A stretch of 64,000 nt of DNA, from NCBI RefSeq assembly GCF_024721115.1, contig NZ_JAMDHK010000011.1, positions 104,046-168,045 of the forward strand. The letters run 5' to 3'. The DNA is from Salipiger pentaromativorans. Lineage in GTDB: Bacteria; Pseudomonadota; Alphaproteobacteria; Rhodobacterales; Rhodobacteraceae. The notes beneath the pieces were generated by a model. That model was not told where the DNA came from. It made no database searches and saw only the letters and a list, made by a program, of their open reading frames with translations. A program made the translations under genes and the position numbers. Positions 32,744 to 49,081 of the stretch are shown here, in pieces; within the stretch, counting starts at the first letter, position 1; each line of letters opens with the position of its first letter.

Positions 32744-33520
32744 TCAGCGGTTGCGGAACGCCGGCGGGCGTTTCTCGGCAAAGGCGGTCATGCCTTCCTT
32801 GCGGTCCTCGAGGGCAAAAGTCGCGTAAAGCAGCCGCCGCTCGACATAGAGCCCTTCCTGTAGATGGGTCTCGTAGGCTTTGCTGACCGCTTCCTTTGCC
32901 AGTTGCATCACCGGGCGCGAGCGTTTCGCCAGGGTCTTGGCCAGCGTCATGGCCTCTGTCACATGATCTCCCGCCGCGACCACGCGGCTGACCAGCCCCA
33001 TGGCCAGCGCCTCTTCGGCCGACAGGGCGCGGCCGCTCATGATCATGTCCATGGCCACGGCTTTCCCGACGATTCTGGTCAGCCGCTGTGTGCCGCCGGC
33101 GCCGGGAATGATGCCGATGGCGGTTTCCGGCAGGGCAAAGCGCGCGGTTTCCGAGGCGATGACGATGTCGCACATGAGCGCCAGTTCGCAGCCGCCGCCA
33201 AGTGCGTGGCCCGAGACCGCCGCGAGGGTAGGCTTGCGCACCCGCGCCAGCCCTTCCCAGGTGGCGGTAATGAAATTCTCTTCATAGACTTCGGCAAAGC
33301 TCTTGTCGGCGATTTCCTTGATGTCGGCACCGGCGGCAAAGGCGCGGTCCGAGCCGGTGACGACCAGAGCGCCGATCGCGGGATCGGCATCGAAGGCTGC
33401 GGCAGCCGCCGAGATTTCGGCGGTGATCTGGCGGTTGAGCGCGTTCAGCGCCTCAGGGCGGTTCAGGGTGATCAGACCGACGGGGCCGTCGGTGGAGACA
33501 AGAATGCAGTTGTAGCTCAT
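32744..33520 (-). CDS. badK: Enoyl-CoA hydratase, probable cyclohex-1-ene-1-carboxyl-CoA hydratase (BadK-like)
   Basis: This 258-residue crotonase has both catalytic Glu positions, in HALGGGCELALMCD and in ALPETAIGIIPGAGGTQRLT, and the AAGADIKEI oxyanion strand. In the cyclohexanecarboxylate pathway BadK hydrates cyclohex-1-ene-1-carboxyl-CoA to 2-hydroxycyclohexane-1-carboxyl-CoA. The general hydratase assignment is secure; the BadK role is inferred from the badH, badI, aliA and aliB genes in the same island. It follows the dehydrogenase gene by 7 bp and shares its promoter, which carries one of the GTAAATATATTG sites. Confidence 0.8.
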   Translation of the reverse strand: MSYNCILVSTDGPVGLITLNRPEALNALNRQITAEISAAAAAFDADPAIGALVVTGSDRAFAAGADIKEIADKSFAEVYEENFITATWEGLARVRKPTLAAVSGHALGGGCELALMCDIVIASETARFALPETAIGIIPGAGGTQRLTRIVGKAVAMDMIMSGRALSAEEALAMGLVSRVVAAGDHVTEAMTLAKTLAKRSRPVMQLAKEAVSKAYETHLQEGLYVERRLLYATFALEDRKEGMTAFAEKRPPAFRNR

Positions 33521-33527
33521 GGCGGCC

Positions 33528-34550
33528 TCAGGCGATGCGGATCAGGATCTTGCCCATGCGGGCAGGGGTTTCGAGATGGTCGAAGGCGTCGGGAACATCG
33601 GCGAGCGCGAAGGCCCGGTCGATGAGCGGTTCAAAGCCGCCGGTTTCCCAGGCCCGGATCAGGCGGCGGAATTCTTCCATCGAGCCCATGGTGGCGCCAT
33701 GTACCGATAGCTGCCGGACAAAGAGCCGTTGCAGATCGGCAGAGGGATGCGCGCCGGTTGTGGCGCCGCAGGTCACCAGATGCCCGCCGCGCGCCAGACT
33801 GCGCAGGGAGGCGCCCCAGGTCGCTTCGCCGACATTGTCCACGACCAGATCGGCGCCTTCGCCGTCGGTCAGGGCGGCGATGGCCTCGGGCAGGTTCTGG
33901 GTGCGATAATCGATCGTCTCGATGCCGAGCGCGCGGAAATGCGCGCCTTTGTCGGTGCCGCTGGTGGTGGCAATGACCCGGGCGCCCGCCATCCGGGCCA
34001 GTTGTACGGCGGCATAGGCGACGCCACCGCCCGCGCCCTGGACCAGCACCACCGAACCGGGCCCCACGGGGGCCTTGCCGAAGACCATGCGCCAGGCGGT
34101 GAGATAGGCCACACCCAGCACCGCAGCCTGGTCCATGTCGGCCTCCGGCGCGAGGCGGATCAGCGATCTTGCCGGCAGGACGACCTCTTCGGCGAAACTG
34201 CCGTGGCGGTGTTCTCCGAGGATGCGGGCGGTCCGGCAAAGCGGCTGGTCGCCGGCCAGGCAGGCGCGGCAGGTGCCGCAGAACTCATAGGGGTACAGAA
34301 TGACCTTGTCGCCAGGGGCGAGGTCGGGCCGTCCCGGGGCTGAAATCAGCTCTCCGGCGCCGTCTACCCCCATGATCAACGGCAGATCATGGGTGATGCC
34401 GGCGCCGCTGTCGCGCATGTAGAGATCGACGCGGTTGACCGAGGCGGCGCGCATCCGCACGCGCGCCCATCCGGGCGGGCATTCGGGCGAGGGCATCTCG
34501 CGCAGCGCGACGCCCGCCTTGCCCCGCTGGTGCAGAACGATGGCTTTCAT
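33528..34550 (-). CDS. Medium-chain dehydrogenase/reductase with structural zinc site
   Basis: The 340-residue MDR protein has a GroES-like N-terminal domain, a Rossmann motif (VLVQGAGGGVAYAAVQLA) and a structural-zinc lobe with four Cys (CGTCRACLAGDQPLC, near 91-105). The catalytic-zinc ligands of alcohol dehydrogenases are missing: the usual Cys is replaced in SVNRVDLYMRD and the GHE motif by MGVDGAGE. It is therefore closer to quinone-oxidoreductase-like reductases. It is the first gene of the minus-strand unit with badK, under the divergent promoter shared with an acyl-CoA dehydrogenase gene. A role on an alicyclic or enone CoA ester is possible but not shown. Confidence 0.8.
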   Translation of the reverse strand: MKAIVLHQRGKAGVALREMPSPECPPGWARVRMRAASVNRVDLYMRDSGAGITHDLPLIMGVDGAGELISAPGRPDLAPGDKVILYPYEFCGTCRACLAGDQPLCRTARILGEHRHGSFAEEVVLPARSLIRLAPEADMDQAAVLGVAYLTAWRMVFGKAPVGPGSVVLVQGAGGGVAYAAVQLARMAGARVIATTSGTDKGAHFRALGIETIDYRTQNLPEAIAALTDGEGADLVVDNVGEATWGASLRSLARGGHLVTCGATTGAHPSADLQRLFVRQLSVHGATMGSMEEFRRLIRAWETGGFEPLIDRAFALADVPDAFDHLETPARMGKILIRIA

Positions 34551-34572
34551 GGTTGTCCTCCCAGGTAATAAT

Positions 34573-34584
34573 GTAAATATATTG
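34573..34584. promoter_or_regulatory. GTAAATATATTG site 1, putative MarR/BadR operator
   Basis: The 12-mer lies 22 bp upstream of the MDR start codon and continues as CCTTAATATGG, forming the palindrome ATATT-N5-AATAT. Identical 12-mers occur at 34679 and 36492. Confidence 0.65.
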
Positions 34585-34678
34585 CCTTAATATGGCAAGA
34601 CTCTACTATTCTTCGTGGGTCTAGATAGATTTTTAAGGTGAAAATTGAGATTGATCTTACTGAGTCCGGGATTTATAA

Positions 34679-34690
34679 GTAAATATATTG
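34679..34690. promoter_or_regulatory. GTAAATATATTG site 2, putative MarR/BadR operator
   Basis: This copy ends 20 bp before the GTG start of the acyl-CoA dehydrogenase gene. With flanks it reads AGTAAATATATTG, two bases, then ATAAAAT, the same as site 3 at all positions except the two middle bases. Confidence 0.65.
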
Positions 34691-34710
34691 CTATAAAATG
34701 GGAGGGTTTT

Positions 34711-35877
34711 GTGGCGTTGGATTCCGACACGCTTGCGCAGCTTTGCGCAACCTTGCGTCGCTTTGTCGATGAGCAGCTGATCCCGGCCGAGGCCGAGGTT
34801 TCGGAAACGGATGCGATCCCGGATCGCCTCTTGATGCAGATGCGCGACCTGGGTCTGTTCGGCCTGACCGCGCCCGAAAGCTATGGCGGGCTGGGCCTGA
34901 CCATGGAGGAAGAGGTCATGGCGGTGTTCGAGCTGGGGCGCGCGGCCCCGGCGTTCCGCTCGGTCTTTGCCACCAATGTGGGGATCGGGATGCAGGGCAT
35001 CGCCATCGACGGGACCGACGCGCAGAAGGCAGCCTATCTTCCTCGGCTCGCCTCGGGCGAGTTGATCGGCTCCTTTGCGCTGACCGAGCCGGATGTCGGG
35101 TCGGATGCGGGCGCGGTGAAGGCCACGGCGCGCCGGGAGGGGGACAGCTATGTCCTGAACGGAACCAAGCGGTTCATCACCAATGCGCCCTATGCGGGGC
35201 TGTTCACCGTGATGGCGCGCACCGATCCCGACAGTCGGGGGGCGGCTGGCGTATCGGCCTTTGCGGTCGAGGCGGGGACGCCCGGCCTGTCCACCGGCAA
35301 GCCGGAGAAGAAGATGGGTCAGCAGGGCGCTCATGTCTGCGACGTGATCTTCGAGGAGTGCCGGGTGCCGGCCTCGGCCCTGATCGGCGGCGTCGAGGGG
35401 CAGGGCTTCAAGACGGCGATGAAGGTGCTCGACAAGGGCCGGCTGCATATCGCGGCGGCCTGCGTCGGGCTGTCGGAGCGGATCATCGACGACATGCTCG
35501 ATTACGCGGTGACCCGCCGGCAGTTCGGCAAGAGCCTGGCGGAGTTTCAGCTTGTGCAGGCGATGTGTGCCGACTCGCGGGCCGAGGCCTACGCCGCGCG
35601 CTGCATGGTGCTGGACGCGGCGCGCAAGCGCGACGCCGGGCAGGACGTGAGTGTCGAGGCGTCCTGCGCCAAGATGTTCGCCTCGGAAGCGGTGGGGCGG
35701 ATCGCCGACCGCAATGTGCAGGTGCATGGCGGCAACGGCTATATCCGCGAATATCGGGCCGAGCAGTTGTTCCGCGATGCGCGGCTGTTCCGGATCTATG
35801 AGGGCACCACGCAGATTCAGCAGATCATCATCGCCAAGGCCATGGTTGCCCAAACGCGGGTGCGTTTGGGGCTTTGA
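34711..35877 (+). CDS. Acyl-CoA dehydrogenase (canonical)
   Basis: The 388-residue FAD enzyme has the ACAD signatures: FALTEPDVGSDAGAVKATA, the FITNAPYAGLF strand, RQFGKSLAEFQLVQAM, and the catalytic-base motif IYEGTTQIQQII at the C-terminus with its Glu in place. It introduces an alpha-beta double bond in an acyl-CoA. The chosen start is GTG 34711 (VALDSDTL), preceded by GGGAGGG at good spacing; the open frame above it starts at a TTG and overlaps operator site 2. In the island it may act on pimeloyl-CoA, on a later beta-oxidation intermediate, or on cyclohexanecarboxyl-CoA. It is divergent from the MDR-badK unit. Confidence 0.9.
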   Translation: MALDSDTLAQLCATLRRFVDEQLIPAEAEVSETDAIPDRLLMQMRDLGLFGLTAPESYGGLGLTMEEEVMAVFELGRAAPAFRSVFATNVGIGMQGIAIDGTDAQKAAYLPRLASGELIGSFALTEPDVGSDAGAVKATARREGDSYVLNGTKRFITNAPYAGLFTVMARTDPDSRGAAGVSAFAVEAGTPGLSTGKPEKKMGQQGAHVCDVIFEECRVPASALIGGVEGQGFKTAMKVLDKGRLHIAAACVGLSERIIDDMLDYAVTRRQFGKSLAEFQLVQAMCADSRAEAYAARCMVLDAARKRDAGQDVSVEASCAKMFASEAVGRIADRNVQVHGGNGYIREYRAEQLFRDARLFRIYEGTTQIQQIIIAKAMVAQTRVRLGL

Positions 35878-35921
35878 TCGCTGCGGGCCGGGGGGTCCCG
35901 GCCTGCGGATCCTGGCGGCGG

Positions 35922-36431
35922 CTATTCGGCCGCCTTTTTCTCGGTGTGGTTCTCGGGGTCGATCGCCTTGAAGTTGCGCAGCATCTTGTCGAGGTAGTGG
36001 ATCATGTGGATCCGGTCCTCGGTGGAAAAGCCGCGCAGTGCGTCGTCGTAATAATCCGAGATGACCGGGCGCATGTTCTCGTCCCAGAGGCTGCGGCCCT
36101 TTGCGGTCAATCGGATCAGCCGCGAGCGGTTGTCGTTCTGGTCCACCGCGCGCTCGATGTAGCTGAGGGTTTCCAGCCGGGTCAGCACGCCGGTCAGGTT
36201 CTGCCGGCTGACCAGCAGGAAGGTTGCGAGGTCGCCCACCGCCACGCCACTTTCGAACTCGGGCCGCGTGAGGGCTCCCAGTACCGCCCATTGCTGGGTG
36301 GTGATGCCGTAGTCGTCCAGCGCCCGCGTGCCCGTCTTGTGCAGCATGTTTGCGCATTGATAGAGGCGAAAGAAGAGCCGGTTGCTGAGCTGCGGCCCGA
36401 GATCCCCCCAATTTTCGCTCTCTTGCGTCAT
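35922..36431 (-). CDS. badR: MarR-family regulator, BadR-like
   Basis: The 169-residue protein has the MarR winged helix: LDDYGITTQQWAVLGAL, GDLATFLLVSRQNLTGVLTR, and the wing RAVDQNDNRSRLIRLTAKG. It is the only regulator gene in the island and is divergent from badH, with operator site 3 in between. In R. palustris the MarR protein BadR controls the cyclohexanecarboxylate genes and is reported to respond to 2-ketocyclohexane-1-carboxyl-CoA; the same role here is inferred from context. ATG 36431 (MTQESENWG) is chosen; the frame also has a TTG at 36467. Confidence 0.85.
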   Translation of the reverse strand: MTQESENWGDLGPQLSNRLFFRLYQCANMLHKTGTRALDDYGITTQQWAVLGALTRPEFESGVAVGDLATFLLVSRQNLTGVLTRLETLSYIERAVDQNDNRSRLIRLTAKGRSLWDENMRPVISDYYDDALRGFSTEDRIHMIHYLDKMLRNFKAIDPENHTEKKAAE

Positions 36432-36491
36432 GCCCGGCACTTTGCGGCCAGCCCGGGAGAAGGTCAAGATGCGCTGCGCGTGCGAAATAAA

Positions 36492-36503
36492 GTAAATATA
36501 TTG
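36492..36503. promoter_or_regulatory. GTAAATATATTG site 3, putative MarR/BadR operator
   Basis: The site lies 60 bp before the marR start codon and 132 bp before badH, so it could serve autoregulation and control of the badHI-transporter operon. Confidence 0.65.
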
Positions 36504-36635
36504 ACATAAAATCCTCTCTCCATCATGTTTCGAGTCAGGGAGGCCGTCCAGAGAGTGGATAAGGCGATTCGACGAAAATATGGGTAAATTCCCATTTTTC
36601 GGCTGGATGCCTGCGGCCTTGGAACTGGAAAGGAG

Positions 36636-37412
36636 ATGGCGTTGCGTGGCCTGAGTGGGAAAGTAGTTGTCGTAACTGGTGGCGGCGGGGGAATTGGCTC
36701 GGCGACCTGCCTGCGCTTTGCGGCCGAAGGGGCACGGGTGATCGTCGCCGATATCGGCGCGGAGGCGGCGGAAAAGATCGCCGCGCAGATCCGTGCAGAG
36801 GGCGGCGAGGCGCAGGCATTGCAGGTCGATCTGACCGACTATGAGGCAAGCTGCGCGGCCGTGGCACGCGCCGAGGCCGAGGTCGGCCCCATCGACATTC
36901 TGGTCAACAATGTGGGCTGGGATCTGTTCGTGCCCTTCCTGAAATCCGAGCCGGATTTCTGGAGCAAGATCATCGACATCAACCTGCGCGGCGTTCTCAA
37001 CATCACCAAGCCGGTGCTGGCCTCGATGGTTGCGCGCAAGGCGGGCGGCCGCGTGGTCTCGATCGGTTCCGACGCCGGGCGTGGCGGGTCATCGGGCGAG
37101 TCGGTCTATGCCGCCTGCAAGGCGGGGGTGATCGCCTTCATGAAGACGCTGGCGCGCGAACATTCGCGTCAGGGCATCACCTTCAACACGGTCTGCCCCG
37201 GCGTCACCGAGACGGCGATGCTCGAGAGTTTCATGGAGGCTGCGGGGGACAAGGAAAAGCTGCGCACGGCCTTTACCCGCGCGGTGCCGATGGGGCGGAT
37301 GGGCCGCCCCGACGATTTGCCCGGCGCGATCCTGTTCCTGTCGAGCGACGATGCCGCCTTTATCACCGGTCAGGTGATTTCGGTATCCGGCGGCCTGACC
37401 ATGCACGGCTGA
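36636..37412 (+). CDS. badH: SDR, probable 2-hydroxycyclohexanecarboxyl-CoA dehydrogenase (BadH-like)
   Basis: The 258-residue short-chain dehydrogenase has the NAD motif VVVTGGGGGIGSATCLRF, NNVGWDLFVPF in place of NNAG, the catalytic Ser in SIGSDAGRGGSSGES and the Tyr-Lys pair in VYAACKAG. BadH oxidises 2-hydroxycyclohexanecarboxyl-CoA to the 2-keto compound. The role is supported by the adjacent badI gene, 10 bp downstream, as in R. palustris. The AGGAG ribosome-binding site (36631-36635) directly abuts the ATG; a TTG at 36642 would be better spaced, so the true start may be two codons later. Confidence 0.85.
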   Translation: MALRGLSGKVVVVTGGGGGIGSATCLRFAAEGARVIVADIGAEAAEKIAAQIRAEGGEAQALQVDLTDYEASCAAVARAEAEVGPIDILVNNVGWDLFVPFLKSEPDFWSKIIDINLRGVLNITKPVLASMVARKAGGRVVSIGSDAGRGGSSGESVYAACKAGVIAFMKTLAREHSRQGITFNTVCPGVTETAMLESFMEAAGDKEKLRTAFTRAVPMGRMGRPDDLPGAILFLSSDDAAFITGQVISVSGGLTMHG

Positions 37413-37422
37413 GGAAGGCCCG

Positions 37423-38205
37423 ATGGATTATACCGATATTCTCTACGAACTGCGCGGCGGTGCCGCCTGGATCACCATCAACCGCGCGGACAAGTACAAC
37501 GCCTTTCGCGGTCAAACGGTGGATGAGCTGATCGACGCGTTCCAGCGTGCCGGCTGGGACCGCGAGGTGGGCGTGATCGTGCTGACCGGCGCGGGGGACA
37601 AGGCGTTCTGCACCGGCGGCGATCAGTCGGCCCATGACGGGCAATACGACGGGCGCGGGGTGATCGGCCTGCCCATCGACGAGTTGCAATCGCTCATCCG
37701 CGATGTGCCGAAGCCGGTGATCGCGCGGGTGAACGGCTTTGCCATCGGCGGCGGCAACGTGCTGGCGACGATCTGCGATCTGACCATTGCCTCGGACAAG
37801 GCGCAGCTCGGTCAGGTTGGGCCCAAGGTCGGTTCGGTCGATCCGGGGTTTGGCACGGCCTATCTCGCGCGGATCGTTGGCGAAAAGCGTGCCCGCGAGA
37901 TCTGGTACATGAACCGCCGCTACACCGCCGCCGAGGCGATGGAGATGGGGCTGGTCAATGTGGTGGTGCCGCATGACGAGCTGGATGCCGAGGTCGACCG
38001 CTGGGTGGCCGAGCTGATGGAGCGTTCGCCCACCGCCATCGCGCTGGCCAAGGTCTCGTTCAACGCCGACAGCGAGAACATCCGGGGCATCTCGGCCATG
38101 GGGATGCGGGCACTCAGCCTCTACTACGACACGGACGAGAGCAAGGAGGGCGGCATCGCTTTCCGCGAGAAGCGCAAGCCGGATTTCAGGAAATTCGGGA
38201 AGTGA
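37423..38205 (+). CDS. badI: 2-Ketocyclohexanecarboxyl-CoA hydrolase (BadI-like ring-cleaving crotonase)
   Basis: BadI hydrolyses 2-ketocyclohexanecarboxyl-CoA to pimeloyl-CoA, opening the ring. The 260-residue product closely follows the BadI pattern as remembered: YNAFRGQTVDELIDAFQRAG, DKAFCTGGDQSAHDGQYDG, VNGFAIGGGNVLATICDL and QVGPKVGSVDPGFGTAYLAR. This GDQSAHDG/VGSVDPGFG combination separates it from ordinary enoyl-CoA hydratases and from MenB, to which it is related in mechanism. It is the most specific pathway marker in the window and follows badH immediately. Confidence 0.92.
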   Translation: MDYTDILYELRGGAAWITINRADKYNAFRGQTVDELIDAFQRAGWDREVGVIVLTGAGDKAFCTGGDQSAHDGQYDGRGVIGLPIDELQSLIRDVPKPVIARVNGFAIGGGNVLATICDLTIASDKAQLGQVGPKVGSVDPGFGTAYLARIVGEKRAREIWYMNRRYTAAEAMEMGLVNVVVPHDELDAEVDRWVAELMERSPTAIALAKVSFNADSENIRGISAMGMRALSLYYDTDESKEGGIAFREKRKPDFRKFGK

Positions 38206-38244
38206 CGCGCTGACATTCCATCAAGCAAACTAGGGAGGAAGTTC

Positions 38245-39480
38245 ATGCTTGAGAAGACACAGGGCCGCAGGACGGCCATCGCTGCCGCGTTTCTGGCGCT
38301 GACCCTTGGAGGAGGGGCAAGTGCCGAAGGCGCGGCCGTCAAGGTGGGCTTTGCCGCCGATCTGACCGGTGCCTGTGCGGCATTGGCCGAGGACGGGCTG
38401 AACGGGGCGACACTCGCGGCCGCAGAGCTGAACGATGCGGGCGGCATTCTGGGCCGCCCGGTCGAATTGATCGTGCGCGACACCCAGACCAAGCCCGACG
38501 AGGGTGCCAAGGTGGCACGCGAGCTGATCACCGACGAAGCGATCGACGTGCTGACCGGGGTCTGTTCCTCGGCGGTGATGCTGGCCGAAAGCGCCGTCTC
38601 CAAAGAGCTGAAGACGCCGTTCTATGCTGCCATCGGCTCGACCCAGCGTGCCAATATCGAGCTGTTCCAGCCCTATTTCTGGCAGGTGCAGGCCAACGCC
38701 ACGATGGAGGCCTATGCCGCCGCCGAATATGTCGCCAAGAAAGCCGATTGGAAACGCATCTCGACCCTAGGGTCGGATTACGAATGGGGGCACACCTCGG
38801 TGGCGGCCTTCACCGAACGGCTGAAGGAACTGCACCCGGACGTGGAATTCGCCGATCCGATCTATGCCAAGGTCGGCGAGACCGCGATGGCGCCCTACAT
38901 CACCGCCACGCTCGCGCAGCGCCCGGACGCGGTCTATGCGCCGCTCTTCGGCCCGTCGCTCAGCGCGGTTCTGAAACAGGGCCAGGGGTTCGGCTTTTTC
39001 CAGCGCAGCGCGCTGGTCACGCTGATGACCGTCGATACGCTGCAATCGCAGGGCGCCGCGATGCCCGACGACAATGTCTTCGGTATCGCGCGTGCACCCT
39101 TCTTCGCGCTCGAGCAGACGCCGGAGGTCACCGCCTTCATCGACAGCTACCGGGCGGCGTTCGGGGAATATCCCACCGACTGGGCGATCAGCGCCTATGA
39201 CGGGCTGAAGTTCTATGCCGCCGCCGCGGAACATGCGGGCACGGTCGAGGCGGAGCCGCTCATCGCGGCGGTGGGCGAGATCACCTATGACGGGCTGCGC
39301 GAACGCGGGCTTCGGGTGCGCGCGCTCGACGGGCAGATGAACGCGCCGAGCTATGTCGGCAAGGCATCCCGCGTCGAGGGTTACGCCTTCCCGATCCTGA
39401 CCGAAGTGGAAAAGTTCGACGGTGCGCCGCTGATGCCGGCCGAGGAGTTCATCCTCAAGGCCCGCGCTGCCGCGCAGTAA
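38245..39480 (+). CDS. Branched-chain-amino-acid-type ABC transporter substrate-binding protein
   Basis: The 411-residue protein has a Sec signal peptide (RRTAIAAAFLALTLGGGASA) and the type I periplasmic-binding fold of the LivJ/UrtA group (GFAADLTGACAALAEDGLNG, NDAGGILGRPVELIVRDTQT). An AGGGAGGAAG ribosome-binding site precedes the ATG. Binding proteins of this class in aromatic-compound operons capture aromatic or alicyclic acids, so cyclohexanecarboxylate-type acids are the favoured ligand, by context only. It lies 39 bp after badI in the same orientation, and a hairpin follows before the permease genes. Confidence 0.9.
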   Translation: MLEKTQGRRTAIAAAFLALTLGGGASAEGAAVKVGFAADLTGACAALAEDGLNGATLAAAELNDAGGILGRPVELIVRDTQTKPDEGAKVARELITDEAIDVLTGVCSSAVMLAESAVSKELKTPFYAAIGSTQRANIELFQPYFWQVQANATMEAYAAAEYVAKKADWKRISTLGSDYEWGHTSVAAFTERLKELHPDVEFADPIYAKVGETAMAPYITATLAQRPDAVYAPLFGPSLSAVLKQGQGFGFFQRSALVTLMTVDTLQSQGAAMPDDNVFGIARAPFFALEQTPEVTAFIDSYRAAFGEYPTDWAISAYDGLKFYAAAAEHAGTVEAEPLIAAVGEITYDGLRERGLRVRALDGQMNAPSYVGKASRVEGYAFPILTEVEKFDGAPLMPAEEFILKARAAAQ

Positions 39481-39532: not shown

Positions 39533-40405
39533 ATGATCCTGATCCAGCTCGTCAACGGGCTCATGGAAGGCATGACGCTGTTCCTGATCGCCTCGGGCCT
39601 GACGCTGATCTTTGGTGTGACCCGCATCATCAACTTCGCGCATGGCTCGCTCTTCATGTTGGGCGCCTTCGTGACCTATGAACTGGTGCCGCTGATCGGC
39701 CCCGGCACGCTCTGGGGGTTCTTTGCCGCGGTGCTGCTGGCGGGGCTGGCGGTGTCGCTGCTGGGGATGCTGTTCGAGATGCTGGCGCTGCGGCGCATCT
39801 ACGGCGCGGACGGGCTCATGCAGCTTATCGTCACCGTGGCGCTGGTGCTGATCCTGCGCGATGTGGTGCGGATGATCTGGGGGCCGAACAGCCTGAGCGT
39901 GCCGATGCCCGACCGGCTGATGGGCGCGCTTCAGATCGGCGACAGCTATTTCCCGCTCTTCCCCATCGCGGTGTTCCTGGCCGGGCTTGTGGTGGTGGTG
40001 GCGATGATCTGGGTGATCTATTTCACCCGCGCCGGCATCCTGCTGCGCGCCGGCACCGACGACCGCGGCATGGTCGCGCTATGCGGCGTGAACGAGCGTC
40101 TGATCTTTACCGCCGTCTTTGCCGCCGGCGCCTTTCTGGCGGGGCTCGCGGGCGGGCTCGCCGCACCCTATGGCGAGGTGAACCACCTGCTCGATACCAC
40201 GGTGATCGTCTCGGCCTTTATCGTCTGCGTGATCGGCGGGCTGGGCAATCTTTATGGTGCATTGGCGGGCGCGCTGCTCGTCGGGCTCACCAAGGCCATT
40301 GGCGTGATGTATTTTCCGCGCCTCTCGATGGTGCTGATCTTTCTGATCATGGCGCTGATCCTGATCGCCCGCTCGATGGGCCGGCAGGGGGGGACCGCGC
40401 GATGA
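39533..40405 (+). CDS. ABC transporter permease, LivH type
   Basis: The 290-residue membrane protein has about eight hydrophobic segments and LivH signatures (MEGMTLFLIASGLTLIFGVT, RIINFAHGSLFMLGAFVTYE, then FIVCVIGGLGNLYGALAGAL with the EAA-like loop). It forms the import channel with the LivM-type subunit. The ATG at 39533 follows an AGGAG ribosome-binding site. Its end overlaps the next gene by 4 bp. Confidence 0.92.
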   Translation: MILIQLVNGLMEGMTLFLIASGLTLIFGVTRIINFAHGSLFMLGAFVTYELVPLIGPGTLWGFFAAVLLAGLAVSLLGMLFEMLALRRIYGADGLMQLIVTVALVLILRDVVRMIWGPNSLSVPMPDRLMGALQIGDSYFPLFPIAVFLAGLVVVVAMIWVIYFTRAGILLRAGTDDRGMVALCGVNERLIFTAVFAAGAFLAGLAGGLAAPYGEVNHLLDTTVIVSAFIVCVIGGLGNLYGALAGALLVGLTKAIGVMYFPRLSMVLIFLIMALILIARSMGRQGGTAR

Positions 40406-41370
40406 CCGATCCGAAAACCCTTTGGGCAGCGGTCTCGCGCGCCGCGCTGAACTGGAAGCTGCTGGTCCCGCTGGCTGTTGCGCTCGAGCTTTTCAACCGG
40501 TTGTCGCCCGCTTCCAGCTCGACCCTGCTGACCGAGGTGGCGATTCTCGCGCTCTTCGCCACCTCGCTGAACCTGCTGATGAGCTTCGGCCATATGGTTT
40601 CGTTCGGGCATGCCGCCTATTTCGGGCTGGGGGCCTACGGGTTCACGCTGGCGGTGACGCGCGGCGGGCTGGCGCCCGAGATGGCGCTGCTGGTCGGGCC
40701 GCTGGCGGCCGCGCTGGGCGGGCTGGTATTCGGGGCGCTCTGTGTGCGCCTGACCGAGATCTATTTCGCCATGCTGACGCTCGCCTGCGCGCAGATCACT
40801 TATACGGTGCTGTTCCAGTGGTACGATGTCACCGGCGGCGACACCGGCATCACCGGCTTCATGATCCCGCGTCTGGGTCTGTCCGAAACCGGCTATGCCA
40901 GCCTGGTGCTCGGTCTGGTGGCGCTGGCGCTGCTGGCGCTCTGGATGATCGTCAAATCGCCCCTGGGGCTGATGATCCGCGCGGTGGGGCAAGACCGCGC
41001 CCGAGCCGAGGCTCTGGGCCTCGCGGCCCGCAGGGTGCAGCTTGTGGCCTTTGTCATCGCGGCGTTCTTCGCGGGGATTGCAGGCACGCTCTATGCGGTG
41101 CTGCACGGGTCCGCCTTTCCCGACTACGCGGGGCTCGGGCTGACGCTCGACGGGCTGATCATGGTGGTCCTGGGCGGGCTCAACAGTTTTGCCGGCGGCA
41201 TCTGGGGCGCGGTGATCTACGAGATGCTGTCCAATTTCGTGCCGAAGTTCATCCACCAGTGGGAGCTGGTTCTGGGGCTGCTGCTGCTCGGCATCTGTCT
41301 GGCCATGCCGCACGGGTTTGCCGGGCTGCTCGCTCGGCTGGGCTGGCGCGGCGGCAAGGGGGAGAAATAG
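40402..41370 (+). CDS. ABC transporter permease, LivM type
   Basis: The 322-residue permease has LivM features: LFATSLNLLMSFGHMVSFGH, AAYFGLGAYGF, TEIYFAMLTLACAQI and RAVGQDRARAEALGLAARRV in the coupling loop. It pairs with the LivH-type subunit. The ATG overlaps the stop of the previous gene (ATGA), and the first ATPase gene starts 1 bp after its stop. Confidence 0.92.
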   Translation: MTDPKTLWAAVSRAALNWKLLVPLAVALELFNRLSPASSSTLLTEVAILALFATSLNLLMSFGHMVSFGHAAYFGLGAYGFTLAVTRGGLAPEMALLVGPLAAALGGLVFGALCVRLTEIYFAMLTLACAQITYTVLFQWYDVTGGDTGITGFMIPRLGLSETGYASLVLGLVALALLALWMIVKSPLGLMIRAVGQDRARAEALGLAARRVQLVAFVIAAFFAGIAGTLYAVLHGSAFPDYAGLGLTLDGLIMVVLGGLNSFAGGIWGAVIYEMLSNFVPKFIHQWELVLGLLLLGICLAMPHGFAGLLARLGWRGGKGEK

Positions 41371-41371: not shown

Positions 41372-42117
<746 letters not shown>

Positions 42118-42118
<1 letters not shown>

Positions 42119-42825
42119 TGCTGCGAATTTCCGGACTTCAGGCCGCCTATGGCAAGGCGGAGGTTCTGCACGGCATCGACCTCGAGGTCGCGCCGGGCGA
42201 GGTGGTTTGCCTGATCGGCCGCAACGGGGTCGGCAAGAGTTCGACCATGAAGTCGATCGTGCGCGACCAGATCGCGGTGACCGGCGGCGATATTCTGTTC
42301 GAGGGCCGGTCGCTGGCACGAATGCGCCCGCATGACGTGATCCGCCGCGGCGTGGGCTATGTGCCCGAGGACCGGCGCGTCTTTGCCTCGCTCTCGGTTC
42401 TGGAAAACCTGCGCGTGCCGCGCCCGGTGCGGGCGCAGGACCGCCGCCGCTGGACCGTCGAGGAGGTGTTTCAGCTTTTCCCGCAGCTTCACGATTACCG
42501 CAACCGCAAGGCCGGGGTGATGAGCGGCGGCGAGCAGCAGATGCTCTCGGTCGCGCGCGCCCTGCTGACCTGCCCCAAGCTGTTGCTGCTCGACGAGCCG
42601 CACGAAGGGCTGGCGCCCAAGATCGCCGAGGAGGTGGTGGATGCCATCGTCGAGCTGAAGCGCGAGGGCGTGTCGATGGTGGTGTCCGAGCAGGCGCTCA
42701 ACACGATCCGGCGCTGTGCCGACCGGGTCTATGTGATCGACCGGGGGGTGACCGTGTGGAGCGGCACCGTCGAGGGCTTTTACGCCGACCCGGAGATCAC
42801 CCGCAAATATCTGATGGTTCAATAG
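42118..42825 (+). CDS. ABC transporter ATPase, LivF type
   Basis: The 235-residue ATPase has Walker A GRNGVGKSSTMK near residue 36, GVGYVPEDRRVFASLSVLEN (a LivF hallmark), signature MSGGEQQMLSVARAL and Walker B LLLLDEPHEGLAP. The start overlaps the LivG-type stop. The aliB-like gene follows 13 bp later, so the transporter and catabolic genes appear to be one transcript. Confidence 0.93.
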
Positions 42826-42838: not shown

Positions 42839-43999
42839 ATGTATCCGACCATTTTCGATACCGAGGAACTGACCGCCCTGCGCGATCTCGCGCGCAAATT
42901 TGCCAGCGAGAAACTCGCGCCCGGCTATCAGGACCGGGAGAGCAGCGGCGCTTTCGGGGCCGATCTGCTGCGTGAGATGGGCAGCCTAGGGCTGATCGCG
43001 CCCGAGCTGCCCGAAGAGTTCGGCGGCCTCGGTGCCGGTTCGATCTATTCGGGGGTGATCATCGAGGAAATCGGCCGTGCCGATTTCAACTTCGGCTATG
43101 TGAACATTCTCGCGTCGCTGAACGGTCAGATCCTGGCCAATTTCGCCAACCCCGAAATCAAGCGCCACTGGCTGCCGAAACTGATCGCCGGCGAGCTGAT
43201 GGTTGCCATTGCGCTGACCGAGCCGCGTGGCGGCTCGGACGCGGCCAGCCTCGGGCTGCGCATGGAGCGCGACGGCGACCACTACGTGCTGAACGGCGAA
43301 AAGACCTCGATCTCCGCCGCCGATCAGGCGGCCGGCGCGGTGGTCTTTGCCCGCACCGGCAGACCCGAGGACAAGGCGCGCGGCATCTCGGCGATCTTCG
43401 TGCCGATGGACACGCCCGGCCTGTCGACCACGCGGTTCACCGATCTCGGCCAGCACGCCATCGGGCGCGGCTCGATCTTCTTCGACAATGTGCGCGTGCC
43501 CGCCGATCATCTGCTGGGCGACGAGGGCAAGGGCTTTGTGCAGGTCATGCAGGGCTTCGATTTCTCGCGCTCGCTGATCGGCCTGCAATGCCTCGGCACC
43601 GCGCGGCAGTCGCTGGACGAAACCTGGGCCTATATCGGCGAGCGCAAGGCCTTCGGCAAACCTTTGGGGGCCTTCCAGGGCATCAGCCATCAGCTTGCCG
43701 ATTTCGACACCCGGGTCGAGGGCGCGCGGCTTTTGTCGCTCAATGCGCTCTGGCTCAAGGACAACGGTCTGCCACATGTGGCCGAGGCCGCCATGGCGAA
43801 ATGGTGGCCGCCGCTGCTGGCCTATGAGGCGGTGCATGCCTGCCTGCTGATCCACGGCCATGCCGCCTATTCCAACGAGCTGCCCTTCGAGCAGCGGCTG
43901 CGCGACGTGCTTGGCCTACAGATCGGGGACGGCACCGCGCACATCATGAAAAACATCATCGCCCGGGAACGGGCCGGTCGCGCCGCCGTCGCCGGCTGA
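42839..43999 (+). CDS. aliB: Acyl-CoA dehydrogenase, probable cyclohexanecarboxyl-CoA dehydrogenase (AliB-like)
   Basis: The 386-residue ACAD has IALTEPRGGSDAASLGLRME, KAFGKPLGAFQGISHQLAD and a C-terminal helix with QIGDGTAHIMKNII. The usual catalytic Glu of the xEGT motif is Asp here, and the alternative base position used by isovaleryl-type enzymes (GFDFSRSL) is Ser. AliB forms cyclohex-1-ene-1-carboxyl-CoA. This gene is preferred over the other ACAD as aliB because it is directly followed, 22 bp on, by the CoA-ligase gene, as aliA and aliB are paired in R. palustris. Confidence 0.82.
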   Translation: MYPTIFDTEELTALRDLARKFASEKLAPGYQDRESSGAFGADLLREMGSLGLIAPELPEEFGGLGAGSIYSGVIIEEIGRADFNFGYVNILASLNGQILANFANPEIKRHWLPKLIAGELMVAIALTEPRGGSDAASLGLRMERDGDHYVLNGEKTSISAADQAAGAVVFARTGRPEDKARGISAIFVPMDTPGLSTTRFTDLGQHAIGRGSIFFDNVRVPADHLLGDEGKGFVQVMQGFDFSRSLIGLQCLGTARQSLDETWAYIGERKAFGKPLGAFQGISHQLADFDTRVEGARLLSLNALWLKDNGLPHVAEAAMAKWWPPLLAYEAVHACLLIHGHAAYSNELPFEQRLRDVLGLQIGDGTAHIMKNIIARERAGRAAVAG

Positions 44000-44021
44000 G
44001 CGCAAAACGGGAGGAGGACCC

Positions 44022-45677
44022 ATGCAATTCGATGCCGTTCTGATCGAGCCGCGCCGCAAGCAGATGGAAGAGGCGGGTTTCTGGCCGGGCAAGACGCTGC
44101 TCGACTATTTCGAGGCCTGTCTGGCAAGCGAGCCCGATGCCCTAGCCCTGACCAGCTTTGTGGTGGCCAGCGGTGCACGCCGTGACCTGACCTGGGCCGA
44201 GATCGACGCCCTGTCCTGGCGCGCGGCCGAGGGGCTGCGCCACCTCGGGCTGGGCAAGGACGATGTACTGGCCTGCCAGCTTCCCAACAGTTGGGAATTC
44301 ATCGTGCTTTACATCGCCTGCCGCAAGCTGGGGATCGTCTTCAACCCGGTGATGCCGATCTTCCGCGAGCACGAGCTGCTGTTCATGCTGCGGCATGGCG
44401 AGGCCAAGGCCTTTGTCGTGCCCAAACTGTTCCGCGGCTTCGATCACGAGGCGATGGCCGAGGCCATGCGCCCCGACCTGCCCGACCTCGCGCATGTCAT
44501 CGTCGCCGGGGGCGAGGGGGCGAATGCCTTCGATACGCTGCTGCTCGATCCCGAATTCGAGCCGGGACTGGAACTGCACGAGCTGTCGCAGCATCTGCGC
44601 GGCGATGCCAATGACGTCTGCCAGTTGATCTATACCTCGGGCACCACGGGCGAGCCCAAGGGCGTGATGCACACCGCCAACACGATGTATTCCAACCTCG
44701 TGGCCTATGCCGACCGGTTGGGGCTCGGGGCGCAGGACATCGTGCTCATGGCCTCGCCGATGGCCCATCAGACGGGGTTCATGTACGGGTTTCTGATGCC
44801 GGTGATGCTGGGTGCCCGCATGGTCCTGATGGATAGCTGGGACAAGGATCTGGCCGCGCGGCTCATCGCCGAGGAGCGCATCAGCTTTACCATGGCCTCG
44901 ACGCCCTTCCTGATGGATCTCTCCAACGCGGTGGCAGAGACGGGCGCCGACAGCTCCTCGCTGCGGATCTTCCTCTGCGCCGGCACCGCCATCCCCGGCC
45001 CGCTGGTGGAGCGGGGGCAGAGTGTGCTGGGGGCCAAGATCATCTCGGCCTGGGGCATGACGGAAAACGGTGCGGTGACCCTCGTTGCGCCGGAGGATCC
45101 CGACGAGCGTTCGGTGCACACCGACGGCTTCCCGCTGCCGGGAGTCGAGTTGCAGATCCGTGGCGCGGAGGGTGAGCTGCTGGGCCATGGTCAGGAGGGC
45201 GAGCTGTATGTGCGCGCCTGTTCGAATTTCGCGGGCTATCTCAAGCGTCCGCAGTGGAACAACACCGATGCGGAGGGCTGGTTCGACACCGGCGACATCG
45301 CGCGCATGGATGCGCAGGGCTATATCCGGATCTGCGGGCGCTCCAAGGATGTGATCATCCGGGGGGCCGAAAACATCCCCGTGGTCGAGGTCGAGGCGCT
45401 GCTCTACAAACATCCGGCGGTGCATCAGATTGCCATCGTCGCCTATCCCGACGACCGTCTGGGAGAACGGGCCTGCGCGTTTGTGGTGCCGAAGCCGGGG
45501 CAGCGCTTCGATTTCGACGCGATGGTGGCCTTTCTCGATACGCAGCATCTGGCGCGCCAATATTACCCCGAGCGGCTCGAGATCCGCGACAAGCTGCCTG
45601 CGACCGCCTCGGGCAAGATCCAGAAATTCGCGCTGCGCAACGAGCTCAAGGCGGAATACGAGGCGTTGCAGGCATGA
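44022..45677 (+). CDS. aliA: Acyl-CoA ligase, probable cyclohexanecarboxylate-CoA ligase (AliA-like)
   Basis: The 551-residue AMP-forming ligase has the P-loop-like motif YTSGTTGEPKG near 204-214, SAWGMTENGAV near 345, the hinge region GYIRICGRSKDVIIRGAENI, and the catalytic Lys in TASGKIQKF near 532. It activates a carboxylic acid to its CoA ester. The N-terminal pattern (RRKQMEEAGFWPGKTLLDYF) fits the AliA/cyclohexanecarboxylate-CoA ligase group. An aGGAGGA ribosome-binding site precedes the ATG. The next gene overlaps its stop (ATGA). Confidence 0.85.
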   Translation: MQFDAVLIEPRRKQMEEAGFWPGKTLLDYFEACLASEPDALALTSFVVASGARRDLTWAEIDALSWRAAEGLRHLGLGKDDVLACQLPNSWEFIVLYIACRKLGIVFNPVMPIFREHELLFMLRHGEAKAFVVPKLFRGFDHEAMAEAMRPDLPDLAHVIVAGGEGANAFDTLLLDPEFEPGLELHELSQHLRGDANDVCQLIYTSGTTGEPKGVMHTANTMYSNLVAYADRLGLGAQDIVLMASPMAHQTGFMYGFLMPVMLGARMVLMDSWDKDLAARLIAEERISFTMASTPFLMDLSNAVAETGADSSSLRIFLCAGTAIPGPLVERGQSVLGAKIISAWGMTENGAVTLVAPEDPDERSVHTDGFPLPGVELQIRGAEGELLGHGQEGELYVRACSNFAGYLKRPQWNNTDAEGWFDTGDIARMDAQGYIRICGRSKDVIIRGAENIPVVEVEALLYKHPAVHQIAIVAYPDDRLGERACAFVVPKPGQRFDFDAMVAFLDTQHLARQYYPERLEIRDKLPATASGKIQKFALRNELKAEYEALQA

Positions 45678-46444
45678 GCACCGCCTGTCTCGCGACGCCC
45701 CGGGCCGTCGTCACCGGGGCGGGTGGCCCGATGGGGCACGCGGTCGCGCGGCGTCTGCTCGAGGCGGGCGCGCGCGGGGTGGCGCTGACCGACATCTCGG
45801 GCCGCCGGCTGGAGGGGACGGTCGCGGCCCTGCGTGGGCAGTTTCCGAAGGCGCAGATCGTGGCACAGCGTGGCGACGTGACCGATGCCGGTGAGGCCGG
45901 GGACTTTGCCGCGATGGCGCTCGAGGCGCTCGGCGGGATCGACGTTCTGGTGAATACGGTGGGCGGGCTGCGCTCGGACCGGCTTTATACGCCGCTGCTC
46001 GAGATGGACGAGGCGCAGTGGCGGGCGACCTTCGATCTGAACCTCATGGGGGCGTTCCACCTGATCCGCGCCTTCGCGCCGGGCATGCGGGCGCAGGGTG
46101 CCGGGCGGATCGTCAATTTTGCCACCATCGTCTTTGGGGGCGAATATGGCCAGGCCGATTATGCCGCCGCCAAGGCGGCGGTGGCGTCGCTCACCCGCTC
46201 GCTCGCTGCCGAGCTGGCGCCGCATGTCACCGTCAACGCGGTGGCGCCTGGGCTGACCCGCACCTCGGTCACCGAGACCATTCCCGCCGAAGAGGCCGCG
46301 CGCCTGACCGCGCTCGCCTTCAACCGCCGCATGGCCGAGCCCGAGGAGATCGCCGAGGCGGTCGCCTTCTTCGCCAGCGAGCCCGCCCGTTTCGTCACCG
46401 GCGAGATCATGGCGGTCTCGGGCGGCATTCATCCGCATCTCTAG
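45674..46444 (+). CDS. Second SDR-family oxidoreductase of the island
   Basis: The 256-residue SDR has the NAD motif VTGAGGPMGHAVARRL, NTVGG in place of NNAG, and YAAAKAA as the Tyr-Lys pair. The strand that normally holds the catalytic Ser reads NFATIVFGG: the aligned position is Thr (or Ala, depending on a 1-residue gap), so activity may be changed. It overlaps the aliA-like stop by 4 bp and is followed by the fused hydratase/dehydrogenase gene. It may oxidise a hydroxyacyl-CoA other than the BadH substrate, for example a substituted or trans isomer. Confidence 0.85.
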   Translation: MSTACLATPRAVVTGAGGPMGHAVARRLLEAGARGVALTDISGRRLEGTVAALRGQFPKAQIVAQRGDVTDAGEAGDFAAMALEALGGIDVLVNTVGGLRSDRLYTPLLEMDEAQWRATFDLNLMGAFHLIRAFAPGMRAQGAGRIVNFATIVFGGEYGQADYAAAKAAVASLTRSLAAELAPHVTVNAVAPGLTRTSVTETIPAEEAARLTALAFNRRMAEPEEIAEAVAFFASEPARFVTGEIMAVSGGIHPHL

Positions 46445-46453
46445 AGGCTCCTC

Positions 46454-48511
46454 ATGTCCGATCCGGTTCGTTTTTCTCTCGAGGGTACGGTGGCGCGGAT
46501 CGTCATCGACAACCCGCCGGTCAATGTGCTGTCGCAAGCGGTGCGCAGGGGGCTGATGGCGGCATTCGACGCCGCCGAGACCTCGGGTGCCAAGCGGGTG
46601 GTGCTGAGCGGGGCAGAGCGCGCCTTTGTGGCCGGGTCCGACACGCGGGAGTTCGATCTCCCGCCGCAGCCGCCCTATCTGCCCGATATCTTCGCCCGGA
46701 TCGAGGCGTTCCCGCTGCCCGTCGTCGCCGCGATCAATGGCGCGGCGCTGGGGGGCGGGCTGGAACTGGCGCTGGTCTGCGCCGCGAGGGTGGCGGTGCC
46801 CGGCGCGCAGTTGGGGATGCCCGAGGTGACGCTGGGCGTGGTGCCGGGGGCCGGCGGCACGCAGCGGTTGCCACGGCTGATCGGCTTTGGCGCGGCGCTG
46901 TCGCTGATCTCGGAGGGCCGGGTGATCGGCGCCACCGAGGCGCGGGAGCTGGGATTGGTCGATCTCCTTGCGGCGGATGCCGCAGACGAGGCGGCGCGGC
47001 TTGTCCTGCCGGACCGAGCCGCGACCGGGGCGATGCCTGCTCCGCCGCGCGATGCCGATGCGGTCGAGACCGCCCGTACCCGTGCGGCGCGGCGCGCCCG
47101 CGACCAGATCGCGCCGCAAAAGGCCATCGACCTGGTCGATGCGGCGACGCGCCTGCCCCTGAAGGAGGGGTTGGCGCTGGAGCGCGAGACCTTTCTCACC
47201 CTCAAGACCTCCGATCAGGCGGCGGCGCTGCGGCATGTGTTCTTTGCCGAGCGCGCGGCGATGGCGCGGGGCCGCAAGGGCGGCGCGGCCATCGAGACCG
47301 CCGTCGTGGTGGGCGGGGGCACGATGGGAAGTGCCATTTCCTATGCATTGGCGCAGGGCGGAACGACCGTCGCGCTGGTGGAAACCGATACGGCTGCGGT
47401 CGAGCGCGCGCGAACAGTGATCGCGGGGCTCTATGCCGAGGCCGTGGCGCGCGGCAAGCTCTCCTCTGGCGCGGCAGATGCCGCGTTAGCCGCGCGCCAT
47501 TCTTTTCATGTGGGCTATGACGACCTGCCGCCGGCGCAGATTGCCATCGAGGCGGTGGTCGAGGATCTGACGGTCAAGCGGCAGGTCTTTGCCGCGCTCG
47601 ACGCGGCGCTGCCGCCGGACACGATCCTGGCCACCAACACCTCCTATCTCGACCCGAACGCCATTGCCGAGGGGCTGCGCAACCCCGAGCGGTTTCTCGG
47701 CCTGCATTTCTTCTCGCCGGCGCATGTGATGAAGCTGGTCGAGGTGATCCGTGCCGGCGAGACGTCGCCGGAAACCCTGGCCACCGTGCTGCGGCTCGCA
47801 GGGCGGCTTCGCAAGATCCCGGTGCTGGCGGGGGTCTGCGACGGGTTCATCGGCAACCGCATCCTCACCGGCTACCGCCAGATCTGCGATGTGATGCTGC
47901 TCGAGGGCTGTCTGCCTGCGCAGGTCGATGCGGCGATGCGCGATTTCGGCATGGCGATGGGCCCATACGAGGTGCAGGACCTTTCCGGACTCGACATTGC
48001 CCATGCCAACCGCAAGCGGCTGGGCTGGGCAGAGCGGACGGATCTCCGCTATGTGCCCATCGCCGACCGGATCGTCGAGGAGACCGGCCGCCTCGGGCGC
48101 AAGACCGGTGCCGGCTGGTACGACTATGCCGGGGGCGAGGCGCAGCGCGCGCCGTTGATCGAGGCGATGGTCATCGAGGCGAGCGCGCGTGCCGGCCTGA
48201 CGCGGCGCGCTTTCACGGATGCGGAGATTGCCGAGCGTGCCAGCGCCGCAATGATCGTGGAAGGGCTGCGCATTCTCGAGGAAGGGATCGCCGCAGACGC
48301 CGCAGACATCGACCTTGTGATGGTGCATGGCTATGGCTTTCCGCGCTGGCGGGGCGGGCCGATGCATCTGGCCGAACGCACTGGCCTGCCGGAGATCCTG
48401 GCCCGGATTGCGGGCTATGCCGCCGCCGACCCGCTGTCCTGGTCGGTGCCCGGAAATCTGCGCCGGGCGGTTGCCGGGGGGCAGGGGCTGGAGGCAGTGA
48501 GGACAGACTGA
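46454..48511 (+). CDS. Fused enoyl-CoA hydratase / 3-hydroxyacyl-CoA dehydrogenase (FadJ/PimF-like)
   Basis: The 685-residue bifunctional beta-oxidation protein has a crotonase domain (about 1-190: NGAALGGGLELALVC, LGMPEVTLGVVPGAGGTQRL), a linker, an NAD-binding domain (AVVVGGGTMGSAISYALAQG near 285) and two C-terminal 3HCDH domains (LHFFSPAHVMKLVEVIRAGE, GFIGNRILTGYRQ). In R. palustris PimF does this step on pimeloyl-CoA; the same use here is inferred. It is 9 bp downstream of the SDR gene. No thiolase gene follows. Confidence 0.9.
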   Translation: MSDPVRFSLEGTVARIVIDNPPVNVLSQAVRRGLMAAFDAAETSGAKRVVLSGAERAFVAGSDTREFDLPPQPPYLPDIFARIEAFPLPVVAAINGAALGGGLELALVCAARVAVPGAQLGMPEVTLGVVPGAGGTQRLPRLIGFGAALSLISEGRVIGATEARELGLVDLLAADAADEAARLVLPDRAATGAMPAPPRDADAVETARTRAARRARDQIAPQKAIDLVDAATRLPLKEGLALERETFLTLKTSDQAAALRHVFFAERAAMARGRKGGAAIETAVVVGGGTMGSAISYALAQGGTTVALVETDTAAVERARTVIAGLYAEAVARGKLSSGAADAALAARHSFHVGYDDLPPAQIAIEAVVEDLTVKRQVFAALDAALPPDTILATNTSYLDPNAIAEGLRNPERFLGLHFFSPAHVMKLVEVIRAGETSPETLATVLRLAGRLRKIPVLAGVCDGFIGNRILTGYRQICDVMLLEGCLPAQVDAAMRDFGMAMGPYEVQDLSGLDIAHANRKRLGWAERTDLRYVPIADRIVEETGRLGRKTGAGWYDYAGGEAQRAPLIEAMVIEASARAGLTRRAFTDAEIAERASAAMIVEGLRILEEGIAADAADIDLVMVHGYGFPRWRGGPMHLAERTGLPEILARIAGYAAADPLSWSVPGNLRRAVAGGQGLEAVRTD

Positions 48512-48640
48512 TGACCGGGCGCCGCGTCCCGGTCGCGGATGTCGGGCGGGACCGCTGGCATTCGCGCCAAGCCGGCGTCAGAATAGGCGGGCTGCCCCGC
48601 GTCGAGGGCGGCGGCGGTTCGAGGCGACGCGAGGGAACCC

Positions 48641-49081
48641 ATGGACGAGTATTTCGAGTGCACACGGCGGGTCGGCTTCGGCGACTGCGACCCGGCACAG
48701 ATCGCCTATACCGGGCGCATCGCCAATTTTGCGCTCGATGCGCTGGATGCGTTCTGGGAGGATCTTCTGGGCGGCGAGGGCTGGTTTCAGATGAATGCCG
48801 AGGGCGGTTACGGGCTGCCCTTCGTGCGCATCGAATACGATTTCAAAAGCCCGATCGTTCCGGGGGCTCCGCTGTTCCTTCAGGTCTGGCCGGTTCGGCT
48901 GGGGACAAGCTCGGTGACCATGGCGGTGCGCGGCGTGCATCGCGGGGCGGTGTGTTTCGAGGCGCAATTCGTCTCGGTCTTCACCGACCGGGCGAGCTTT
49001 GCCAAGATCGCGGCGCCGGATCATGTCCGCGCCGCGCTGCTGCGGAGCTATCCGGCCATCGCCGACGCGGTGTCTCCCTAA
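48641..49081 (+). CDS. 4-Hydroxybenzoyl-CoA thioesterase-like hotdog protein
   Basis: The 146-residue single-hotdog protein carries RVGFGDCDPAQIAYTGRI, very close to the active-site strand of Pseudomonas 4-hydroxybenzoyl-CoA thioesterase with its Asp in place (GDCDPA), and FVRIEYDFKSPIVPGAPL. It would hydrolyse aromatic or alicyclic acyl-CoA esters and release trapped CoA. GAGGG 6 nt before the ATG supports the start. It is separated from the fused beta-oxidation gene by 129 bp with no gene in it, and is the last gene of the island. Confidence 0.85.
   Translation: MDEYFECTRRVGFGDCDPAQIAYTGRIANFALDALDAFWEDLLGGEGWFQMNAEGGYGLPFVRIEYDFKSPIVPGAPLFLQVWPVRLGTSSVTMAVRGVHRGAVCFEAQFVSVFTDRASFAKIAAPDHVRAALLRSYPAIADAVSP

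Follow-up and report, generated by a model that had tools for sequence, protein, structure and literature searches.

Cyclohexane carboxylates stand for naphthenic acids, toxic components of oil-sands water, and the catabolic pathway for cyclohexanecarboxylate is already known: in Aromatoleum, deletion of badHI showed the role of the bad-ali genes in its degradation under both oxic and anoxic conditions (PMC9795900). Here we describe an island at positions 32744..49081 of a 64,000-nucleotide stretch of Salipiger pentaromativorans DNA (the window), which is a bad-ali gene cluster that probably imports cyclohexanecarboxylate-type acids by its own ATP-binding cassette (ABC) transporter and would then convert their coenzyme A (CoA) esters to ring-opened pimeloyl-CoA. 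As described in PMC9795900, the bad-ali clusters of Rhodopseudomonas palustris and Aromatoleum sp. CIB have aliA, aliB, badK, badH and badI in common with the island; R. palustris also has a MarR gene divergent from badH, and Aromatoleum and several other proteobacteria carry an AabA-type dehydrogenase inside the cluster, both as seen here. Unlike the R. palustris and Aromatoleum clusters, the island has an ABC importer between badI and aliB, extra genes of the medium-chain (MDR) and short-chain (SDR) dehydrogenase/reductase families, no thiolase in the cluster, an operator variant and a structured badH leader. Direct reading of the sequence shows the enzyme families and their order, the same 12-base site at each of three promoters, and a leader with covariation ahead of badH. 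What the island adds to the known pathway is an integrated importer, a three-promoter candidate regulon and a new leader element, of which the importer and the leader are the parts most worth testing; the operators and the leader also go beyond the content of an initial annotation of this DNA.

Families were assigned with NCBIfam equivalog models and their curated cut-offs, and domains with Pfam gathering scores. Occurrence in relatives was counted over 80 loci picked by badI. The enzymes of the island are as follows.

32744..33520, minus strand: BadK-like enoyl-CoA hydratase (PRK05862, 372.1 bits, below the cut-off of 396)
33528..34550, minus strand: MDR-family oxidoreductase (ADH_N and ADH_zinc_N domains)
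34711..35877, plus strand: second acyl-CoA dehydrogenase (ACAD; Acyl-CoA_dh domains, probable GTG start at 34711)
36636..37412, plus strand: BadH-like 2-hydroxycyclohexanecarboxyl-CoA dehydrogenase (TIGR03206, 371.7 bits)
37423..38205, plus strand: BadI, 2-ketocyclohexanecarboxyl-CoA hydrolase, ring opening (TIGR03210, 474.7 bits, cut-off 467.6)
42839..43999, plus strand: AliB, cyclohexanecarboxyl-CoA dehydrogenase (TIGR03207, 605.1 bits, cut-off 575.35)
44022..45677, plus strand: AliA, cyclohexanecarboxylate-CoA ligase (TIGR03208, 812.4 bits, cut-off 792.3)
45674..46444, plus strand: second SDR (adh_short_C2; in 19 of 80 badI loci)
46454..48511, plus strand: FadB-like hydratase/3-hydroxyacyl-CoA dehydrogenase fusion (ECH_1, 3HCDH_N and 3HCDH; in 20 of 80 badI loci)
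48641..49081, plus strand: hotdog thioesterase (4HBT_2; in 5 of 80 badI loci)

The enzymes named in the initial annotation were found, with BadI, AliB and AliA each above the curated NCBIfam cut-off, BadI narrowly. That annotation had asked whether BadI might instead group with MenB or ordinary hydratases; the protein passed TIGR03210, and three MenB models (340.7, 310.7 and 232.9 bits) each stayed below their own cut-off. The closest BadI proteins, among the matches listed, include those of Xanthobacter, Chelatococcus and Sinirhodobacter. The SDR directly ahead of badI had been called BadH-like, and TIGR03206 is its best family: the score is below the cut-off of 431.2, yet ranks first of 228 families by about 153 bits. 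A badH homologue is present in 72 of the 80 loci, and the window badH occupies the badI-adjacent slot; comparison with relatives suggests that it starts at TTG 36642 instead of ATG 36636. The BadK-like hydratase passed no dedicated NCBIfam model, PRK05862 being the best, and has a homologue of at least 50% identity in 30 of the 80 loci; many clusters are reported without badK (PMC9795900). For the second ACAD, no equivalog exceeded its NCBIfam cut-off, and its position and the clusters described in PMC9795900 make it likely to be an AabA-like pimeloyl-CoA dehydrogenase. Like the second ACAD, the second SDR, the FadB-like fusion, the thioesterase, the MarR regulator and the five importer genes have the expected Pfam domains. 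The compact gene set stood as first described, although several positions and strands had to be corrected: badK and the MDR gene lie on the minus strand, as does the MarR gene, which runs from 35922 to 36431 or 36467. Many relatives share this gene order, so the arrangement is not due to chance.

The MDR gene has 2eih as its nearest PDB sequence. The protein retains a four-cysteine stretch (CGTCRACLAGDQPLC), and its catalytic-zinc ligand positions look replaced, as in double-bond reductases. Several features of the island would also fit enzymes whose main substrate is a ring acid that is substituted or unsaturated, such as a cyclohexane carboxylate that is hydroxylated, alkylated or derived from a terpene; the MDR and SDR proteins would then make or remove the substituent, and cyclohexanecarboxylate would be a side substrate. 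The MDR gene has homologues in 23 of the 80 badI loci and the second SDR in 19; the MDR gene lies behind a candidate operator and matches no equivalog above cut-off; and its nearest PDB sequences are alcohol dehydrogenases whose substrate is unstated. badKHI clusters have, moreover, been proposed for monoterpenes (PMC9795900). We nevertheless find a substituted acid an unlikely main substrate: AliA and AliB exceed the cut-offs of cyclohexanecarboxylate models, and the terpene-linked clusters described in that source lack aliAB and badR, while the complete set, as present in the island, is proven to serve cyclohexanecarboxylate. From the sequence, we infer cyclohexanecarboxylate or an analogue as the substrate, together with its import and the regulation of its use; the label 'naphthenic-type' given to it in the initial annotation is a guess.

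In the pathway that we propose, the acid would be captured in the periplasm by the binding protein and taken into the cell by the five-gene transporter. AliA would form the CoA ester, which AliB, BadK and BadH would oxidise to the 2-keto ester, and BadI would open the ring. The second ACAD and the FadB-like fusion, which likely serves pimeloyl-CoA beta-oxidation, would run one round of beta-oxidation, and a pcaF-type thiolase and a glutaryl-CoA dehydrogenase, both encoded elsewhere, would finish the degradation. No thiolase gene is present in the island, which therefore does not hold together the four genes of the aab lower pathway (dehydrogenase, hydratase, 3-hydroxyacyl-CoA dehydrogenase and thiolase). 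The best thiolase match in the genome is unlinked (G000:C22:127223-128422), 67% identical and above the pcaF cut-off; the two open reading frames (ORFs) beside it gave no pathway match. Of 35 loci compared in relatives, 7 have a related thiolase ORF after the FadB gene, with Pfam thiolase domains in all three tested, and the thiolase of L017, the sole one of the cluster thiolases scored by NCBIfam, is above the pcaF cut-off. In Salipiger abyssi, the cluster includes an ACAD that resembles glutaryl-CoA dehydrogenases of solved structure (3eom, 632 bits), and the homologue of this ACAD in the S. pentaromativorans genome (83% identity) is unlinked to the island. The genome showed no PF06050 domain (2-hydroxyglutaryl-CoA dehydratase D / BcrB-BcrC type) in a search that did not extend to BamB class II reductases or the aerobic box route, a result that fits the earlier view that the entry substrate is already alicyclic. 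Given the unlinked thiolase and glutaryl-CoA-dehydrogenase-like genes and the absence of PF06050, degradation from an alicyclic acid to glutaryl-CoA and beyond appears plausible. The original reading of the island as one for alicyclic-acid degradation is thus supported by signature enzymes above their cut-offs and by a lower pathway that unlinked genes could close.

The importer lies between badI and aliB.

38245..39480, plus strand: periplasmic substrate-binding protein (SBP; Peripla_BP_6, with matching fold, a separate sequence family)
39533..40405, plus strand: permease 1 (BPD_transp_2, 129.1 bits)
40402..41370, plus strand: permease 2 (BPD_transp_2, 133.5 bits)
41372..42118, plus strand: ATPase 1 (ABC_tran, BCA_ABC_TP_C)
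42118..42825, plus strand: ATPase 2 (ABC_tran)

By Pfam domains, this is the set of a HAAT/Liv-type transporter: a binding protein, two permeases and two ATPases. An ABC cassette lies directly 3' of badI in 13 of the 80 badI loci; in 12 of these 13 it is complete and aliB comes next, within 26 bp in 11. The cassette could instead serve for general uptake of amino acids or aromatic acids, sharing no more than the operon with the pathway. Its SBP fold is the same as that of amino acid and urea binders, and RPA0668 (hbaE) of R. palustris is reported to bind benzoate-type acids (PMC3223731). More distant relatives also occur in other settings. A 41% SBP relative (L098/L101, genome G656) adjoins, with permeases, a different acyl-CoA ligase that is 30% identical to AliA, and no badI was found near it in the 4.2 kb checked. 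On the 2,4-D plasmid pJP4 (L102, 11839-15731), a 37.6% SBP relative with two permeases and one ATPase stands ahead of IS1071, about 7 kb from tfdA. On the other side, all 13 SBPs of at least 45% identity among the 80 loci, themselves chosen by badI, lie directly after badI, and the SBP family is set apart: 108 of the 116 listed proteins (window included) share at least 48% identity and the other 8 only 30-33%, among the best 7998 candidates scored. We therefore judge a general importer improbable.

In a search not selected by badI, among 72,556 plasmid records (E <=1e-40), we found two SBP relatives, and the only close one (84% identical) lies at most about 120 bp from badI in Paracoccus pantotrophus pPAN3. 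The laboratory strains P. versutus DSM 582 and P. pantotrophus DSM 11072 have this gene cluster as well. The SBP was present in 1 of 295 family genomes, its own (at most 6 candidates scored per genome), and in 2 of 385 class genomes, its own and that of the 41% relative (at most 4 candidates scored per genome). The predicted SBP structure (mean predicted local distance difference test score 92.4) has 3i45 as its nearest solved structure, followed by 4-hydroxybenzoate and vanillate binders among others, with ligands taken from PDB titles. The HbaEFGHI importer of R. palustris (RPA0668) differs, with 18% identity to the island SBP, and is not known to lie inside a badI-aliB operon. The open-licence literature that we searched described no dedicated cyclohexanecarboxylate uptake system, and no word beginning with transport, uptake or importer occurs in the main text of PMC9795900. 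The idea of a dedicated importer, predicted in the initial annotation, gains weight from the fixed operon place in relatives, and a binding protein fixed within the operon is a direct candidate for such an uptake system.

In 23 cassette-less loci measured, the badI-aliB distance is 55-357 bp, too short for a replacement importer inside the gap. Among 35 loci compared, 4 are flanked by a DctM-like gene and 6 by a different Liv-type SBP (one of each confirmed by Pfam). The cluster on S. abyssi pPABY2 resembles the island in having badK-like, ACAD, MarR, badH-like, badI, aliB, aliA, SDR and FadB-like genes in the same order, with an annotated acyl-CoA thioesterase at its end. It differs in having a TRAP (tripartite ATP-independent periplasmic) binding-protein gene beside badK and, within the run, pcaF, a glutaryl-CoA-dehydrogenase-like gene and etfBA; the ABC cassette and the MDR gene are both missing from the stretch. 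TRAP-type genes near badK were seen in two cassette-less relatives, pPABY2 (L104, 1-910, annotated DctP) and L050 (4027-7018, DctM and DctP domains), so that importer types may swap. A BadI tree of 31 rows divides into two lineages (100/97) that conflict with the BadH tree: one holds the window together with divergent Xanthobacter clusters (BadH about 60%), the other the clusters of Gemmobacter lutimaris and Paracoccus versutus, which are close in the other genes. The split concerns window 37423-38205, L031, L036, L077, L081 and L084, and suggests that operons have exchanged badI.

The MarR gene is divergent from badH, and a 12-base sequence recurs at three promoters.

35922..36467, minus strand: MarR-type regulator, BadR-like, start possibly ATG 36431 (MarR_2 39.3 bits and MarR 28.1 bits, both above gathering scores)
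34573..34584, plus strand: candidate BadR-like operator 1 (GTAAATATATTG), 22 bases before the MDR-badK unit
34679..34690, plus strand: candidate BadR-like operator 2, 20 bases before the second ACAD
36492..36503, plus strand: candidate BadR-like operator 3, between marR and badH, overlapping TTGACA at 36501-36506

Operator 3 is 24 bases ahead of the MarR gene, or 60 if that gene starts at 36431. The window contains three exact copies of GTAAATATATTG and six matches with at most two mismatches, against 0.17 expected. Across the 5.28-Mb genome there are exactly three copies, all at island promoters, and none of the reversed control; two one-mismatch copies lie on other contigs. The same site, or a variant of it, precedes badH in relatives. 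We compared the 23 clusters that have both regions (the window and 22 loci; the remaining loci lack one of them) and found that in 19 the copy between the MDR gene (or badK) and the ACAD gene is within two mismatches of the cluster's own badH site (mononucleotide shuffles, p <=0.025). L016, L057, L075 and L089 are the four without a matching second copy.

The published operator pattern CAAN4TTG is reported in the intergenic region of most Gram-negative clusters (PMC9795900). It has five matches in the window against 7.35 expected, none of them in island promoters; where the published BadR site has CAATnnATTG, the island has AAATATATTG, with one conserved base changed. Since the intergenic region holds a one-base variant and no exact CAAN4TTG, we call the regulator BadR-like rather than BadR, a prediction made from its MarR domains and gene position. 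The sites of L036, L061, L062 and L080 contain CAATATATTG and so match CAATnnATTG; the window's clade thus has a variant site in which one side carries A in place of C. The regulators of the two site groups are closely similar in the recognition-helix stretch. The -35-like TTGACA overlaps the badH site, and Aromatoleum operators likewise overlap -35 boxes; the BadR of Aromatoleum does not tolerate a change of the first base (PMC9795900). The MarR protein is predicted from these sequences to bind the three candidate sites. Acting like BadR, it would occupy them and shut the three promoters until a CoA ester of the pathway freed it.

Between the promoter and badH lies a leader of about 104 nucleotides, beginning near CAGGGAGGC.

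36535..36638, plus strand: conserved structured leader of the badH transcript (covariance models R1 and R2, pair counts)

In six close relatives aligned with MAFFT, without fitting to a model, the fold comprises an outer stem, a small hairpin and a long hairpin, with 13 double-change cells against 6.5 in shuffles (1/500) and 6 pairs with such changes against 4.9 (150/500). In an unfitted ten-member alignment (A3), RNAalifold gave a related fold without the small hairpin, with 20 double-change cells against 8.4 (0/500) and 8 pairs against 6.0 (61/500). When 954,860 bases of loci were scanned with a covariance model built on these six, it gave 12 hits, every one a badH leader: the training six, three clear matches (E 3.5e-8 to 2.9e-6) and three weak ones (E 0.11-0.93). 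On the S. pentaromativorans genome, this model picked out the leader plus a single weak hit elsewhere (14.7 bits, E 3.5). Over the twelve members, in an alignment fitted to the model, 19 of 27 pairs showed double changes against 10.0 (0/500), and RNAalifold's own fold on the twelve (A5) gave the same three stems, with double changes in 13 of 17 pairs. Leaving out the three weakest members, there were 12 pairs against 7.2 (3/1000) and 26 cells against 10.9 (0/1000). A second model, trained on the twelve, gave 15 hits when run over 1.33 Mb of loci, all 15 at badH, the new ones being L072, L025 and L027 (E 0.0046-1.5). At E <=0.001, it matched 3 of 394 family genomes, each at the badH of a bad-ali locus; one is the S. 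pentaromativorans genome and two repeat leaders already counted.

The leader might instead be no more than an inverted repeat at the DNA level, or a stem formed by accident, with no functional RNA. The window fold is modest (-39.4 kcal/mol, z -2.13, 3 of 200 shuffles as good), four of the nine members outside the first six (L016, L017, L020 and L025) fold no better than mononucleotide shuffles (z near 0), and alignments A5 and A6 were fitted to the model. Against this, the double-change cells exceed shuffles in the unfitted alignments too, RNAalifold's own prediction for A5 recovers the same stems, and model matches in 1.3 Mb of loci lie solely at badH, so we regard an accidental structure as unlikely. 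Within these caveats, the conserved fold with covariation is that of a structured cis-regulatory RNA, and we read the badH leader as a real, lineage-restricted RNA element. Known riboswitches and cis-regulatory leaders likewise combine structure and compensatory changes with a tie to one operon; the badH leader differs in matching no Rfam family at gathering scores. The ribosome-binding site is unpaired in the predicted fold, which argues against its masking by the leader, and a scan of the plus strand of the leader found no terminator-like site. The leader RNA would add control after initiation, or would protect the long transcript. If functional, it would represent a level of control so far unrecognised in an alphaproteobacterial catabolic operon, one already accompanied by a covariance model and a member set. 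More speculatively, and with rather long odds against it, the leader might be a new class of metabolite-sensing RNA that reads the alicyclic acid or its CoA ester, leaving the island doubly controlled by a BadR-like repressor at three promoters and an RNA on the main transcript, with the same transcript carrying the first dedicated cyclohexanecarboxylate importer.

Two further features were seen near these genes. A terminator-like hairpin with a T tail lies at window 35917-35934, between the converging ACAD and MarR genes, in a region where 1.8 such sites are expected. Just beyond badK, an RND (resistance-nodulation-division) efflux permease and its adaptor are encoded on the minus strand at window 28159-32690.

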